Assembly (NCBI GenBank): GCA_040882285.1
Contig: JBBEBQ010000018.1
Span: 62,001 to 126,000 of the forward strand
Source: Gemmatimonadaceae bacterium
GTDB taxonomy: Bacteria > Gemmatimonadota > Gemmatimonadetes > Gemmatimonadales > Gemmatimonadaceae
Direction of reading: 5' to 3'
DNA length: 64,000 nt
Every line of letters starts with the position of its first letter. Within the stretch, counting starts at the first letter, position 1. Below the pieces are notes generated by a model that had not been told where the DNA came from, ran no database searches, and saw nothing but the letters and a program-made list of their open reading frames with translations. Below are positions 31,585 through 38,356 of this stretch, one piece after another. Both the position numbers and the translations under genes were made by a program.

Positions 31585-32607
31585 TCAGTCCGCGGCCAGC
31601 GCCGCGACTACGTCCAGAAACGCGGGCTCGGCAGCAACGGAGCCGACGCGGATGAAGTGCTCGCCACCGGCTTCGACGAAGGACTCGCGTCCGCGGATTC
31701 CGATCTCCTCGATCGTCTCGAGCCCGTCCGTCAGGAATCCAGGCGTGATGACCGCGACGCTGCGTATGCCCCGGCGAGGCAGCTCCTCCAGAATGGTCGC
31801 CGTCGCCGGTTTGAGCCAAGGCTCGGGACCGAACACCGATTGATACGCCAGCGTTGCCCGCTCGCGGGGCCAGTCGATCGCTCCGAGGAAAGCACGCGTG
31901 GTGGCTTCGCAATCACGTGTGTACGTGCCGCCTTCGCGGCGGTCATACCGGACTGGTATCCCGTGGAACGAGACGACGAGGTGCTCAACATCGTGCCCGG
32001 CTTCGCGCAGCGCGCGGTGCCACTGATCCGCCATGGCCCGCACGTAACCCGGGTCGTCCGGCTGCATGAGCCGCTCGACAAGTTGGGCAGTGATTCCGGC
32101 GCGGGCGGCCGCTTCGCGGGCGCGCAGGAACGCCGTTCCGGTCGTGGCGTCCGTGCGCTGCGGAAAGAGCGGACACACGATCACCGGCCCCGTGCCCTCG
32201 CGGGCCAGCCGCCGCATCACGGTGTCGAGCGAGGGCTCGCCATAGCGATAGGCCGCACTCACCTGGAAACGGCTGCCCGAGCGATCCCGTACTCCGGCCA
32301 CGATCGCTTCGGTCTCGACTCGCAGGGGCGAGCCGTCCGTGCCCCAGATGGACTCGTACTGCTCAGCGACGCGTGCCGGACGCTTGCGGAGCACGATGCC
32401 GCGCAGAATCGGCTGCCAGATCAACCGCGGCCAGTCCACGACCGCCGGGTCGCTGAGGAACTCGTCCAGGAACTCGCGCACGGCGGCGGCCGTCGGCTCG
32501 CGGGGAGTTCCCAGATTTACCAGCACGAGTTGAGTCGCGTCGCGGGTCGTCACGGTGGTCAACTTAACCACCGCGACGCCCGCAACGGGCGGAACGGCGG
32601 TGAGCAT
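31585..32607 (-). CDS. hemH: Ferrochelatase
   Basis: 340 residues as drawn; the true start may be a later GTG since homologues begin close to LVLVNLGTP. Catalytic His in VVSFHGIPVRY and conserved acidic GLETIEEIGI. Inserts Fe2+ into protoporphyrin IX at the end of the pathway. About 150 bp upstream of hemA on the same strand; co-transcription is possible but a hemA promoter candidate lies between. Confidence 0.95.
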   Translation of the reverse strand: MLTAVPPVAGVAVVKLTTVTTRDATQLVLVNLGTPREPTAAAVREFLDEFLSDPAVVDWPRLIWQPILRGIVLRKRPARVAEQYESIWGTDGSPLRVETEAIVAGVRDRSGSRFQVSAAYRYGEPSLDTVMRRLAREGTGPVIVCPLFPQRTDATTGTAFLRAREAAARAGITAQLVERLMQPDDPGYVRAMADQWHRALREAGHDVEHLVVSFHGIPVRYDRREGGTYTRDCEATTRAFLGAIDWPRERATLAYQSVFGPEPWLKPATATILEELPRRGIRSVAVITPGFLTDGLETIEEIGIRGRESFVEAGGEHFIRVGSVAAEPAFLDVVAALAAD

Positions 32608-32712
32608 GAATCAGGCATTCACCTACGCTCGCTGCGGGATATCCCGATTGCAGCGGTGCCCCCGCCTGAGCTTCCTTAGCGCGACATCGACGCGCGTCGA
32701 GGAGGCAGCACC

Positions 32713-32856
32713 ATGAAGTCCCGACGTCGGCCTCGGCCGATGCTGGACGGCAGGGAAACGCGGCACCTGATCGAGGCAGACATCGATCACGGTTTGCCGT
32801 TCGTTTCCCGGGATCGCGCGCTTCGCAGATGTCTTTCCCGTTTTTTTTCTGTGTAA
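32713..32856 (+). CDS. Possible small basic protein, 47 residues
   Basis: Short frame preceded by a textbook AGGAGG at 32700-32705 and 7-nt spacing. Product is rich in Arg (MKSRRRPRPMLDGR..) with no recognisable family, and the last codons run through a T-tract (32840-32848). It lies in the 277-bp gap between hemH (divergent) and the EB_dh cytochrome. It could be a real small protein or leader peptide, or chance; evidence is the ribosome-binding site only. Confidence 0.3.
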   Translation: MKSRRRPRPMLDGRETRHLIEADIDHGLPFVSRDRALRRCLSRFFSV

Positions 32857-32884
32857 TAATCCCCTGAGCGCGGAGACGCTTTTT

Positions 32885-34300
32885 ATGAACACCAGGCTTT
32901 TTTTGACCCCGGCTGCCTTGCTGCTGGTTGCGGGTTTCGCAGCGGCCTGTAACGGAGACGACGCCACCGGACCTGGGCTCGCTGGCGCAAATTTCGCCTC
33001 GGTCCAGAAAATTCTTACAGAGGACTGCGGCTCTTGTCACGGCGCGTCCTCGGGCCGGTTCTTCATGGTCACCATGGACTCCGCCCAGTTGCAGCAGTCA
33101 GGGCTCGTGGACCCGGCGAACCCCGCCCAGAGCCTGATCGTGCTCAAGCCGACGAACGCGACGCCGCACGGCGGCGGCGCGGTGGCGAGTTATTCCGAAG
33201 GCGACCGGACGCTCGTGATGGACTGGATAGCGACGCTCCCGCCGGCAGCGCCGAGCGTGGTCGAGGCGATCAAGGTGGGCGCGGGCACCTCGATTCCCGT
33301 CCCGACAGTCGACGGCTTTTTCGATCTGGTCTGGAATCAGGCGGCCCGGGTGCGCCTCCGCGTCGCTGATGGCTGGGGCGAGGCCGAGTTCGTGACGATC
33401 CAGGCTGCGTACGACGCAACCTACCTGTACATGGTGATCTCCTGGGACGACGACAAGGCGAGCATCCGGCGTCAGCCCTGGGTCAAGCAGGCCGACGGCA
33501 CGTGGAAGAAGCTACCCGGGAAGAGCCCGCTGCCGGCCGATGGAATCACCTGGGCGTCGTACATGGGCGGGGCGTTCGACGAGGAAGACAACGCGCGGTT
33601 CAACTACGAGGACAAGCTGTCGGTCATGTGGAACACCTACGGGCCCACTACGGTCGCCGGCTTCGAGCAGAGCGGCTGCGCGGTGCTCTGCCACGATCCC
33701 AGCAACAGCAATGGACCGGGAACGACGTACAACTACACGACGCAACAGCAGGCGGCGAAGATGTACACCAACAACCCTGGAGAGATCGCCGACATGTGGC
33801 ACTGGAAGCTCGTGCGCGGCAACCAGCATGCCAAGGCCGACGACCAATACGTGCACTACTGGGTTCCCGGACCGACCGGTGCGAGCGGTGGTGGTCGTGC
33901 CGGTGACGCCGGCGGCGGAGGCTACTCCGACAATCTCGCTACGGCCGGTGCGCCAACTTACCGGGGCTCGAGCAGCAGCGCTCCACCCTACTACATCTTC
34001 GACAGTGAGAAGGTGCTGCTCACCACCGCTGCGCTCAACGCGCTAGCCGTGGGCTCGGAGATTCCCGGAATCATCACGAGCGGCCCGGGCGGTTTCCGCG
34101 CGGACGTGGACGCGAAGGGCCTGCACAACACCGGTACGTGGGCCGTCGAGTTCCGCCGGAGGCTGGTCACCGGCGACGTGAACGACGTGCAGTTCGACAA
34201 TCTGACGAGGCAATACTCGTTCGGCGTGGCGATCTTCGACAACGCGCAGATCGAGCACCGTTACTCACCAATGGTCGCCAGGCTGGCGTTCAAGCCCTGA
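32885..34300 (+). CDS. Cytochrome c / ethylbenzene-dehydrogenase-like haem lipoprotein
   Basis: 471 residues. Lipoprotein signal to Cys22 (AGFAAAC). One c-type haem site CGSCH (48-52) in an N-terminal cytochrome domain (about 35-120), then an EB_dh-type domain from about 140 (FFDLVWNQAARVRLRV.., YLYMVISWDDD..) resembling the haem b subunit of ethylbenzene/DMS dehydrogenases, with an extra CAVLCHD. Ends in the usual EB_dh tail (FGVAIFDNAQIEHRYSP). Likely a periplasmic electron-transfer protein carrying c and b haem. GGAG precedes the start. No catalytic molybdenum subunit of the EBDH type sits next to it. Confidence 0.82.
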   Translation: MNTRLFLTPAALLLVAGFAAACNGDDATGPGLAGANFASVQKILTEDCGSCHGASSGRFFMVTMDSAQLQQSGLVDPANPAQSLIVLKPTNATPHGGGAVASYSEGDRTLVMDWIATLPPAAPSVVEAIKVGAGTSIPVPTVDGFFDLVWNQAARVRLRVADGWGEAEFVTIQAAYDATYLYMVISWDDDKASIRRQPWVKQADGTWKKLPGKSPLPADGITWASYMGGAFDEEDNARFNYEDKLSVMWNTYGPTTVAGFEQSGCAVLCHDPSNSNGPGTTYNYTTQQQAAKMYTNNPGEIADMWHWKLVRGNQHAKADDQYVHYWVPGPTGASGGGRAGDAGGGGYSDNLATAGAPTYRGSSSSAPPYYIFDSEKVLLTTAALNALAVGSEIPGIITSGPGGFRADVDAKGLHNTGTWAVEFRRRLVTGDVNDVQFDNLTRQYSFGVAIFDNAQIEHRYSPMVARLAFKP

Positions 34301-34490
34301 GCGGGTAGGCGCGTGGCTCGACGTACGCATGGCGATCGCAGCGATCTCGGTGGCAAGGCGGAATTGGCTTTGTCATCGTGATCGCTCCTGGCGCGTCGTC
34401 GGCGGGTGTGCGTGGGCACGATGAACCACAACAAGCTCTTCCCGCGTCGCCAGGTCGCCCGCAAAGGGGGACCATCAATTCGGAGGATCT

Positions 34491-35015
34491 ATGTTCTTTT
34501 CATTTAACAGGATCGGCATTGCCGGAGCAGCCGGAGTTCTTGTCGTGGGCGCCTCCGCCTGCGAGCAGGGGCCGGCTGCTCGTGTTCCGACAGGTGGCGA
34601 TGCGGCTGGCCGGGTCGCGATGGCTCCGGCTGGAGGCATGTACGATCCAGCAATCACGGTGTACAAGGAGCCGACGTGAGGCTGCTGCGGTGAGTGGATA
34701 GAGAGACAGCGGTCAGCCGGGTTCCGGGTCGACGCGAGGGACATGGCCGACGTCACGCCCGCGAAAGATCAGCACGGCGTTCCTCATTCTCTCCGCACTT
34801 GCCACACCGCCGTCGTGAACGGCTACGTGATCGAAGGACACGTTCCACCCGAAGACATCCGGCGGCTCCTGCGGGAGAAACCGGCGGTCGCCGGTATCGG
34901 GGTGGCCGGCATGCCGCGCGGCTCCCCGGGAATGGAGCAGGGAGCCACCAAGGATCCCTACAGTGTCATCGCCTGGTTGAAGGACGGCTCCACGTCGGTA
35001 TACGCGCGCCACTGA
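34491..35015 (+). CDS. DUF411 protein with in-frame UGA at a conserved Cys: candidate selenoprotein
   Basis: One frame of 175 codons interrupted only by TGA at 34677-34679 (codon 63). Upstream part: strong GGAGG site, lipoprotein signal to Cys24 (VVGASAC), linker, then ITVYKEPT. Downstream, same frame: GCCGEWIERQRSAGF, HGVPHSLRTCHTAVV, NGYVIEGHVPPEDIRRLL, GVAGMPRGSPGME and DGSTSVYARH. This is the full DUF411 pattern, in which family members read PTCGCC; here the first Cys codon is UGA, giving T-U-G-C-C. DUF411 proteins are periplasmic, metal/copper-resistance linked, and the CxCC motif probably binds metal or acts in redox. Conservation on both sides of the UGA argues against simple decay. 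A stem-loop starts right after the UGA. Alternatives: nonsense mutation (pseudogene) or a sequencing error. A standard caller would split it into 34491-34679 and 34743-35015. Confidence 0.75.
34680..34718 (+). promoter_or_regulatory. Possible bacterial SECIS-like stem-loop after the in-frame UGA
   Basis: Starting with the base after UGA, ggct (34680-34683) pairs with agcc (34715-34718) and gctg (34684-34687) with cagc (34707-34710), leaving a 4-nt bulge on the 3' side and a G-rich 19-nt loop. Position fits bacterial SECIS elements, which lie directly downstream of UGA inside the coding region. The large loop is not the compact apical loop of E. coli fdhF, so this is tentative. Confidence 0.35.
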
Positions 35016-35067
35016 GCGTTGAAGCAGCCCGGCCCCGCCACAGTCCGTGACGGGACCGATCCGATAC

Positions 35068-36036
35068 TTACGATACTACCGGCCGGTCGGTCCTGGCAGG
35101 CCCGGCAGCTGCGTCGTCCGCGTCCTCGGCCAGGGGCAAGTTCTTGGCTCCATTCTTCGGAACGTGGCCGGCCGCGCCCATGAGTCCCATCAGCGACGGC
35201 ACGTTCAGCGAGTCGGCCAGCCCCGACGGCACGACCATCAGCGAGCCGCGCTTCACGATGCTCTCGTACAGCATGTTCATCGCGCGCAGGTTCATCGCCG
35301 CCGGGTGGTCGCGGTACGCGTCCGCCGCCTCCACGAACTTGTGAGCGATCTCGGTCTCGGCGGTTCCGAGGATGATACGCGCCTGCCGCTCGCGCTCCGC
35401 CTGCGCCTGCCGCGACATCGCATCCTCAAGCGCGGCGGGGATGATGACGTCGCGGATCTCGACCGACTGCACCTGGATCCCCCAGTTCTTCATCTTTTCC
35501 TCGAGCGCCACCTTGAGCCCGTGGCCCAGCTCGATCCGGGACTGGATCAGCTCCGCCAGGTCGTGCTTGCCGATGGCGTCGCGCAGCGCCGTCTGCGCCG
35601 ACAGGATCACGGCCTCGTCGTAGTCCTGCACCTCGAGGGCGGCGCGCTCGGCGTCGCGCACGATCCAGAACGCGATGGCGTCGACGTTCACCGGCACCGT
35701 GTCGCGCGTCAGGCACGATTCCGCGCCGAACGCGGTGGTGCGGATACGCTGGTCGATCACGTACGCCACGCGGTCGAGGATCGGCACGATCCCGAAATAG
35801 CCGGGACCGCGCAGTCCGCGGTAGCGGCCGAGCCGCATCAGGACCGCGCGCTCCCATTGATCGGTGTACTTGATGGCCGCTGCGAAGAACATCCATACAC
35901 CCACGCCCGCGATGACCACGAGCGGCAAGGGGAGGCCCAGGAGATACAAGGCCCCAGCCACGCCGGCACCAGCGATCAGCCCCGCGGCGAGCGCGGCGAT
36001 CGAGTACCGGGTGTCGTTCGGAGAATGTCTGGTCAT
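35068..36036 (-). CDS. Slipin/stomatin-like SPFH (band 7) protein
   Basis: 322 residues, GAGGTAG upstream of the ATG. Two close hydrophobic segments at the N-terminus, then an SPFH domain (WERAVLMRLGRYRGLRGPGYFGIVPILD, RDTVPVNVDAIAFW, ALRDAIGKHDLAELI) and a coiled, Ala/Glu/Arg-rich region EDAMSRQAQAERERQARIILGTAE. Slipins scaffold membrane domains. It lies 45 bp downstream of the NrfD gene on the same strand, so it may be expressed with the oxidoreductase complex. No NfeD partner is next to it. Confidence 0.88.
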   Translation of the reverse strand: MTRHSPNDTRYSIAALAAGLIAGAGVAGALYLLGLPLPLVVIAGVGVWMFFAAAIKYTDQWERAVLMRLGRYRGLRGPGYFGIVPILDRVAYVIDQRIRTTAFGAESCLTRDTVPVNVDAIAFWIVRDAERAALEVQDYDEAVILSAQTALRDAIGKHDLAELIQSRIELGHGLKVALEEKMKNWGIQVQSVEIRDVIIPAALEDAMSRQAQAERERQARIILGTAETEIAHKFVEAADAYRDHPAAMNLRAMNMLYESIVKRGSLMVVPSGLADSLNVPSLMGLMGAAGHVPKNGAKNLPLAEDADDAAAGPARTDRPVVS

Positions 36037-36081: not shown

Positions 36082-37371
36082 TTACCGCGTCCGCACGGGG
36101 CGGATGTCCCTACGTTGCGTGCGGGTGCTGCGTGGACGGACGATCCGCGCAGCGCCCGCGTCCTCGACATAGGGACTGCGCACCTCACCGAGCTCGATCG
36201 GTAGCGCCACGCGCACGAGCACGGTGAGGACGAACATGCCGAGCGCCCACACCCCGGCGGTGACGCCGAGCTCGACGAGACTGGGCGTGTACTCGACGAT
36301 CTCGCCGAGCGGCGACGGGATGAATCCCGGCACCACCAGGCCGATCCCCTTTTCGATCCAGATGCCGACGAACAGAGCCACGCAGGCGGGAATCAGCCAG
36401 CGCGGATTGTTCCGCACCGGGTGGATCATGAGCGCGATCGTTGCCACCGTGCTGAGCGCGATCGCCGTCCAGATCCACGGTACCAGCGCGTTGTGTCCGT
36501 CGAGGCCGAAGAAGAGGTACCTGGCGTTGATGCCATGATGCGTCGGCGAATAGAACTTGTAAAAGAGCTCCGAGCCAAGCATCACGAGGTTGATCTGCGC
36601 CGCGACGGTAGTTATCAGCGCGAGCTTCGAGAACGCTCCTTCGGATATTTCGTACTCGGTCTCCCTGCGGATGAACCAGAGCAGGAGAATCACGAACGCC
36701 GGGCCGGCGGTGAATGCCGACGCCAGGAAGCGCGGGCCCAGCAACGCGGTGTTCCAGAACGGCCGGGCCGGCAGTCCCGCCAGGAGGAACGCCGTGACCA
36801 GGTGGATGCTCACCGCCCACATCACGGCGATGTACATCCAGGGGATGTACTTCCTCTTGTCCGGCTGACGGCCGGAGAAGCGACTGTACAGGATATAGAA
36901 CGGGATGACGAGATTGAGCGCCAGATAGCCGTTCAGCACCAGGACATCCCAGGCCAGCAGGGAACGGGGCCAGTTCAGGAACCCGATGCCGGGCATGAGG
37001 TGCCAGCCGCCGAGCGGGTTGCCGATGTCCACGACCACGAATGCAAGGCACATGACCAGCGCGGCCACCGCGACCGCCTCCGCCATGAGCACCGCGCGGC
37101 CGAAATCCACATCCTTCAGGATATAGGCTGGCAGCACCAGCATCATGGCGGCCGCCGCGAGACCGACGAGGAAAGTGAAGTTGGAGATATACAGCCCCCA
37201 GCTTACGTGATCGTTCATGCCCGTGACGCCCAGTCCATAGCGCAGCTGCAGAGAGTACGCGTACGCCCCGACGAGCATGATGAGCGTGAGGCCGCCCATC
37301 CACACGTGGTAGCGCCGGCCCCCGGAGGTCGCCGAATGCAGTGCGCTCAGCGCGAACGGCTTCAGGTGCAA
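36082..37371 (-). CDS. NrfD/PsrC-type quinone-interacting membrane subunit
   Basis: 429 residues, TTG start at 37371 with GAGGCG just upstream and 7 bp after the ferredoxin stop. About ten TM helices; NDHVSWGLYISNFTFLVGLAAAAMM and HLVTAFLLAGLPARPFWNTALLGPRFLASAF are typical of the HmeC/DsrP-like branch of the NrfD family. It should exchange electrons with the quinone pool and pass them to or from the iron-sulfur subunit encoded just upstream. Last redox gene of the minus-strand cluster. Confidence 0.9.
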   Translation of the reverse strand: MHLKPFALSALHSATSGGRRYHVWMGGLTLIMLVGAYAYSLQLRYGLGVTGMNDHVSWGLYISNFTFLVGLAAAAMMLVLPAYILKDVDFGRAVLMAEAVAVAALVMCLAFVVVDIGNPLGGWHLMPGIGFLNWPRSLLAWDVLVLNGYLALNLVIPFYILYSRFSGRQPDKRKYIPWMYIAVMWAVSIHLVTAFLLAGLPARPFWNTALLGPRFLASAFTAGPAFVILLLWFIRRETEYEISEGAFSKLALITTVAAQINLVMLGSELFYKFYSPTHHGINARYLFFGLDGHNALVPWIWTAIALSTVATIALMIHPVRNNPRWLIPACVALFVGIWIEKGIGLVVPGFIPSPLGEIVEYTPSLVELGVTAGVWALGMFVLTVLVRVALPIELGEVRSPYVEDAGAARIVRPRSTRTQRRDIRPVRTR

Positions 37372-37378
37372 TGTCGCC

Positions 37379-38356
37379 TCAGTCGGTGAAGTACCAGAAG
37401 CGCGGCTCGATCTTCAGGTCCTCTTTCAACCGGAACACGCGCTTGTTCGCGAGGATCCAGCGGATCTCCGAGTTTGGATCCAGAAGATTTCCAAAGACAC
37501 GCGCGCCCGTCGGGCACGCCTCGACGCAAGCCGGGAGCTGGCCTTTCCGAGTGCGGTGAATGCAGAAGTGGCATTTCTCCACGACGCCCGTCTTGCGCGC
37601 GCGGTTGCCGAGGTAGTGCTGATTCGTGTTCAGCTCGGCGACCGGCACTTCTGGCTCGCTCCAGTTGAACCGGCGCGCCCAGTAGGGGCACGCTGCCATG
37701 CAGTAGCGGCAGCCGATGCACCAGTCGTAGTCCACGACGGTGATGCCGTCCGGTTCCTGCCAGGTCGCGCCCACGGGACACACCTTCACGCACGGCGGGT
37801 CGGCGCACTGGAAGCACTGCGTGCCAATGTAGAAGTGGCCCTCCGCGGGCACCTCGTGCTGGAACGTCGCGTCGGCGTGATCGAAGTCGATCACCCCGTC
37901 TTCCATCTCGAAGATGCGGATGTACTCCGTGGCGGCGCGGCGGTCGAGGTTGTTCTCGTTGATGCAGGCCTCGACGCAGCTCCGGAATCCCTTGCACTTC
38001 GAGATGTTGAAGGCGTAGCCGAACACCACTCCGGGCTGGGCGCCGGTGGATTGAATGGTCACGTCCACACCGCGCTTCAATTCCGCCAGGCGCTCGAGCC
38101 GCGCGATCGTCTCGGCCCGCTCGGCGTCGGTCATCGTGCGATAGTTGCCTTTGATGTACTCGCGCCAGGCGAGCAGCTTGGCTTCCTTCGACTCCGGAGT
38201 CGCGGCGCTGACCGGCGCGCAGGCGGCCACGGCGCTGGTACCGGCTGCCGCTCCGCCGAGGAGGATGCTCAGCGCGCGCCGGCGGTCGACACGCTTTTGC
38301 AGCAGCGTCTGCCCGGCCGCGTCGCGCGGCACGTCGGTCGTCGGGTCGGAGGTCAT
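37379..38356 (-). CDS. Tat-exported iron-sulfur subunit (DsrO/HmeA/TmcB-like) with an altered cluster
   Basis: 325 residues from the ATG at 38356. Tat-like signal DRRRALSILLGGAAAG. Four cluster-binding stretches: CKGFRSCVEAC (121-131), CFQCADPPCVKVCP (181-194), CIGCRYCMAACP and CHFCIHRTRKGQLPACVEACP. In the first stretch the residue that should be the second Cys is Phe124, so that cluster may be [3Fe-4S]. Expected to sit on the periplasmic side, wiring the NrfD subunit to the NapA-like protein and cytochromes. Overlaps the tetrahaem gene by 4 bp. Confidence 0.9.
   Translation of the reverse strand: MTSDPTTDVPRDAAGQTLLQKRVDRRRALSILLGGAAAGTSAVAACAPVSAATPESKEAKLLAWREYIKGNYRTMTDAERAETIARLERLAELKRGVDVTIQSTGAQPGVVFGYAFNISKCKGFRSCVEACINENNLDRRAATEYIRIFEMEDGVIDFDHADATFQHEVPAEGHFYIGTQCFQCADPPCVKVCPVGATWQEPDGITVVDYDWCIGCRYCMAACPYWARRFNWSEPEVPVAELNTNQHYLGNRARKTGVVEKCHFCIHRTRKGQLPACVEACPTGARVFGNLLDPNSEIRWILANKRVFRLKEDLKIEPRFWYFTD

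Follow-up and report, generated by a model that had tools for sequence, protein, structure and literature searches.

An in-frame UGA at a metal-binding cysteine points to a widespread, apparently uncatalogued family of DUF411/CopG selenoproteins

Reports on CopG describe periplasmic proteins that bind a tetranuclear copper cluster through a CxCC motif and two methionines (PMC7558416), with a proposed role in the oxidation of Cu(I) or in handing copper on (PMC7558416, PMC8456105). Selenocysteine (Sec) has been catalogued at heavy-metal handling sites of other proteins from environmental bacteria; the metal-related entries of a 2026 catalogue include CopZ-like 2Fe-2S proteins, an NF041115 UxxU metal-binding family, the SO_0444 Cu/Zn efflux transporter and the mercuric transport protein (PMC13188914). 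These are similar to the proteins described here in where Sec is placed, but they belong to unrelated families and include neither a DUF411 protein nor any entry listed with a UGCC motif. The same inventory, which covers 119 prokaryotic selenoprotein families and subfamilies, has no entry for DUF411, CopG or UGCC (PMC13188914), in agreement with a sequence-only reading of this locus that knew of no described DUF411 selenoprotein. A search of non-subscription papers combining selenoprotein with DUF411, 'copper resistance protein CopG' or the UGCC motif likewise found no such report.

We analysed a stretch of 64,000 nucleotides from a Gemmatimonadaceae genome (hereafter the window), which carries a DUF411/CopG-type gene with a TGA inside its frame. 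The parts of the gene are as follows.

34482 to 34486, plus strand: GGAGG, a probable ribosome-binding site, read directly in the sequence.
34491 to 35015, plus strand: DUF411/CopG-type gene of 174 codons with an in-frame UGA, stop codon included, from the translation.
34491 to 34562, plus strand: predicted N-terminal signal sequence, possibly a lipoprotein signal ending in ASAC (Cys24), from the translation.
34677 to 34679, plus strand: UGA codon, proposed Sec63, at the first Cys of the CxCC metal motif, from alignment to the CGCC of CopG and the same codon elsewhere.
34680 to 34688, plus strand: codons for Gly64-Cys65-Cys66, the remainder of the UGCC motif, from the sequence and translation.
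34680 to 34718, plus strand: local stem-loop immediately 3' of the UGA, an unconfirmed candidate insertion signal that is not of the family type, from folding.

The frame is open from the ATG at 34491 to the TGA at 34677-34679 and open again to the TGA at 35013-35015, with zero frameshifts. The sequence-only reading had proposed that two frames in the same phase join by readthrough at 34677, and they do form a single DUF411 frame of which this TGA is the sole interruption. The readthrough product (...ITVYKEPT-U-GCCGEWIERQ...CHT...GMPRGSPGM..., 174 amino acids, with U at residue 63) contains the motifs U63-G-C65-C66-G-E-W and C104-H-T, as well as M141 and M148. It scored 87.7 bits against the Pfam DUF411 model PF04214 (cut-off 27) and had zero matches among NCBIfam models. 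In a phmmer comparison with the CopG structure 6WIS (E = 1e-30), 120 residues aligned and U63 lay opposite the first Cys of CGCC, confirming that the UGA falls on a conserved Cys with family similarity on both sides. The window protein thus shares its domain over 120 residues with CopG/CutG (DUF411, PF04214; Pseudomonas aeruginosa CopG, PDB 6WIS and 6WJE). CxCC (with U for the first C), CHT and both methionines are present, with C104, M141 and M148 kept; GMP and PGM are also conserved, and both proteins are exported, the window protein by prediction. The difference is that the first Cys of CxCC is a UGA in the window gene and throughout the new family, and copper binding by the Sec form is putative.

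The half of the gene downstream of the UGA had been judged unlike a decaying pseudogene, and this held. Across the 112 codons 3' of the UGA the frame meets neither another stop nor a frameshift, and changes are confined to 2 of 42 conserved family columns, which equals the family median (the list holds 43 columns, one of which is a padding letter). GC content by codon position also resembles that of working homologues. A separate open reading frame starting at 34743 fared less well: an ATG is present and opens a frame of 90 amino acids, but it is simply the next in-frame ATG downstream of the TGA, and homology runs unbroken across the site. Re-initiation there would omit the conserved GCC..W directly after the UGA. 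For UGA being read as some other amino acid, the gene's own end is a TGA, which argues against wholesale reassignment, and the genome encodes a tRNA-Sec with anticodon UCA. We therefore regard re-initiation or an alternative amino acid as the most improbable of the readings considered.

To survey the same codon elsewhere, we scanned 84,980 species genomes (one genome per species) with a DNA pattern, which returned at least 119 matching stretches, although about one-third of the matches listed arose by chance and lacked a DUF411 frame. UGA at exactly this codon (UGCC) recurs in at least 85 other DUF411 genes, from about nine phyla. Among the matches listed, the UGA-DUF411 genes are open upstream and mostly have 110-116 open codons after the UGA; their record titles name Acidobacteria, Gemmatimonadota, Chloroflexi, Beta-, Gamma- and Deltaproteobacteria, Rokubacteria, Tectomicrobia, Acidimicrobiia/Ilumatobacter and Thermodesulfovibrionia. 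DUF411 genes are common in the order of the source genome, most of them with CGCC, but G065, G073, G081, G185, G187, G192, G198 and G217 have UGA at this codon. Relatives that have the gene show either UGA or Cys at the codon, and their frames are intact, with none of the frame damage that the sequence-only reading had named as counter-evidence. Across 395 Gemmatimonadota genomes, 15 stop codons occur at the site in a DUF411 context and all are TGA; the absence of TAA and TAG is weak evidence, as a one-step change from TGY reaches only TGA. One candidate of the same kind, G091, was rejected because its TGA is the normal gene end and the site itself has CGCC.

Two observations concern individual members. 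UGA-DUF411 genes L066 and L156 come from environmental metagenome-assembled genome (MAG) records titled Bordetella parapertussis, but their sequences group with betaproteobacterial MAGs, and the species label looks wrong. Three actinobacterial proteins (L113, L115 and L147) branch off very far from the rest (length 1.45), carry the motif VWRDPG-UGCC and are perhaps a separate origin or subfamily.

Co-occurrence of UGA-DUF411 with selA is specific. We found selA in 27 of the 28 UGA-DUF411 genomes tested (26 above the cut-off and one as a fragment), compared with 5 of 22 controls, these being genomes that hold only a chance match to the pattern (Fisher 4e-8). The exception, G124, is perhaps explained by incompleteness. 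The UGA copy is the sole DUF411 gene in 26 of the 28 genomes; the remaining two genomes, G125 (L238 and L252) and G123 (L250 and L253), have two DUF411 copies, each listing one internal TGA. The UGA genes are thus not redundant duplicates undergoing decay.

The source genome is itself equipped to insert Sec. As noted earlier from the sequence, the window has no sel genes, and an Rfam scan of it returned a single tRNA and nothing else; the genome-wide search that had been proposed located selA, selB, selD and selC (tRNA-Sec) elsewhere, so the genome does not lack Sec machinery. The matches comprised tRNA-Sec (68.6 bits, anticodon UCA), selA (566 bits), selB (including the C-terminal end of the model) and selD (374 bits), the last with its own in-frame UGA at the UxxK site. 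This Sec-type selD (L018:1531; G000:C6 at about 124313) has its TGA within CAGUASKMGPGD and adjoins selC, with tRNA-Sec about 1 kb downstream. SelD and the window DUF411 gene thus both have an in-frame UGA and the same decoding machinery. They differ in that selD has a compact hairpin, GGGUCC-AGG-GGACCU, 17 nt 3' of its UGA and of the usual bacterial SECIS form, whereas the window DUF411 gene is without one.

At the level of the family, RNA evidence for Sec insertion is strong. In published bacterial SECIS elements, a small apical loop lies 16-37 nt after the UGA and has a G early in it, in most cases as G[G/U] (PMC13188914). Under a strict rule (a perfect stem of at least 4 bp, a G[G/U] loop 16-24 nt after the UGA and -6 kcal/mol or better), a hairpin was found in 44 of 88 Sec genes compared with 2 of 65 Cys genes (p = 2e-11), a contrast that lineage may partly explain, as the Cys set is drawn from Gemmatimonadota only; half of the Sec genes fail this rule. 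When the sets were matched for protein motif and the threshold was set at -5 kcal/mol, the hairpin was present in 49 of 85 Sec genes and 3 of 38 Cys genes (p = 6e-8). One pairing register (columns i+j=52) is prominent in Sec genes, with little of it in Cys genes; in this register, pair 22-30 alternates among G-C, A-U and G-U, and 18-34 and 17-35 covary. Folding energies relative to synonymous shuffles agree with the Sec/Cys contrast. A looser test accepted a G at either of the first two loop positions and scored the constrained hairpin of greatest stability; Sec and Cys genes could not be told apart by it (medians -12.0 and -12.1), and we count it as failed. What computation shows is an unbroken frame, a UGA conserved across phyla, Sec machinery that is present in the genome and co-occurs with such genes, and a SECIS-type hairpin in the family; taken together, these observations indicate that UGA-DUF411 is almost certainly a true selenoprotein family.

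For the window copy itself, RNA evidence is weak. Downstream of the UGCC motif it has WIERQ, compared with W[VIM]x[HY][LM] in nearly all others, and as a result two pairs of the hairpin common to the family, 20-32 and 22-30, are broken. The sequence-only reading had pointed to a stem-loop starting at the base after the TGA. This fold is real (-15.5 kcal/mol, 41 nt), but 28% of synonymous shuffles fold as well as the window stem (34680-34718), the family hairpin is absent and the fold offers no SECIS evidence; the suggested check against a bacterial SECIS model downstream of 34677 likewise gave no clear hairpin of the published form. These features are as would be expected if the family were true selenoproteins and the window copy had lost its insertion signal, stopping at codon 62 as an early pseudogene.

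The origin of the gene bears on this question. No other UGA copy was seen in the taxonomic family of the source genome, where DUF411 otherwise has Cys, and UGA-DUF411 was not found in the other three genomes of the same genus. In G003, one of these, hemH adjoins the SPFH gene, with neither the ethylbenzene-dehydrogenase-domain gene nor DUF411 between them; in G001, the start of the ethylbenzene-dehydrogenase-domain gene is present and UGA-DUF411 is absent. The segment missing from G003 corresponds to 32540-35145 of the window (the ethylbenzene-dehydrogenase-domain gene at 32885-34300 plus UGA-DUF411). Gain by transfer is a likely source of the window gene, and loss in other members of the genus could also account for its patchiness. 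The source genome has a second DUF411 with CPCC in place of CGCC (L059; G000:C20:45388-45840), a paralogue present in 4 of 4 genomes of the genus. Patchiness and the presence of this paralogue, like the disrupted hairpin, would fit early decay. Against it stand the uninterrupted codons after the UGA, the few altered conserved columns and the codon-position GC typical of working homologues, although decay could be too recent to have left a mark. Overall, we consider an early pseudogene unlikely.

A second explanation makes this an ordinary Cys-type DUF411 gene whose TGA arose by chance through a nonsense mutation, or by an error in sequencing or assembly. TGC or TGT becomes TGA by a single base change, other DUF411 genes of the taxonomic family have Cys and a Cys gene would be expected to lack the hairpin. 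The genome, however, is Sec-competent, and the stop coincides with the one codon at which UGA recurs in at least 85 other genes; the rows nearest to the window protein in a tree are mostly Sec forms, with weak support, and an error at exactly this codon is very unlikely. We judge this explanation to be very improbable. The reading of the gene as a DUF411 selenoprotein is instead supported by the recurrence of the UGA in at least 85 other genomes and by the Sec machinery, and Sec is probably inserted at the UGA of the window copy. Taken as a whole, this reading (an exported DUF411/CopG copper protein whose UGA at 34677 is decoded as Sec by the genome's own SelA/SelB/SelD/tRNA-Sec, and which belongs to a widespread, apparently uncatalogued family) is very likely correct.

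Homology to CopG suggests a probable role in periplasmic copper chemistry, with Sec as a ligand of the cluster. Sec forms retain the other conserved CopG residues, and some UGA-DUF411 genes lie near genes for CusF, CopI/plastocyanin, multicopper oxidase or Cu-ATPase, but the gene neighbourhoods show no conserved partner and most differ. By analogy, the most likely mechanism would be a copper site with one selenolate ligand; the main alternative would be that Sec and Cys form a redox pair whose substrate is copper or a similar metal. SelA, SelB, SelD and tRNA-Sec would decode the UGA at 34677 to give the full-length product, with the SelB of this genome accepting an unusual insertion signal. 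Sec63, together with Cys65, Cys66 and the conserved methionines, would then bind and redox-cycle periplasmic copper, and the selenolate may alter the site's affinity or its redox behaviour. More tentatively, and with rather less confidence than doubt, we propose that in this family, which spans about nine phyla, Sec coordinates a multinuclear copper cluster of the CopG type, giving a native selenolate-copper site, and that the window member is decoded through a non-standard insertion signal.

If the selenoprotein reading is correct, a common family is added to the known selenoproteome, one whose genes standard gene callers would truncate at the UGA even where it is the sole DUF411 gene. It would also join selenium to copper handling, with Sec where CopG has a Cys ligand of the copper cluster; the benefit of selenium at a copper site could therefore be tested directly by comparing natural Sec and Cys variants at this position. 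The window copy would probe how much deviation from the SECIS model a working UGA tolerates.

Further along the window, on the minus strand at 36082-38353, lie genes for NrfD-type and 4Fe-4S proteins, with cytochrome-like genes in the region. The NrfD-type and 4Fe-4S genes gave their best matches to DsrP (401 bits, above the cut-off) and DsrO (190 bits, just below it).
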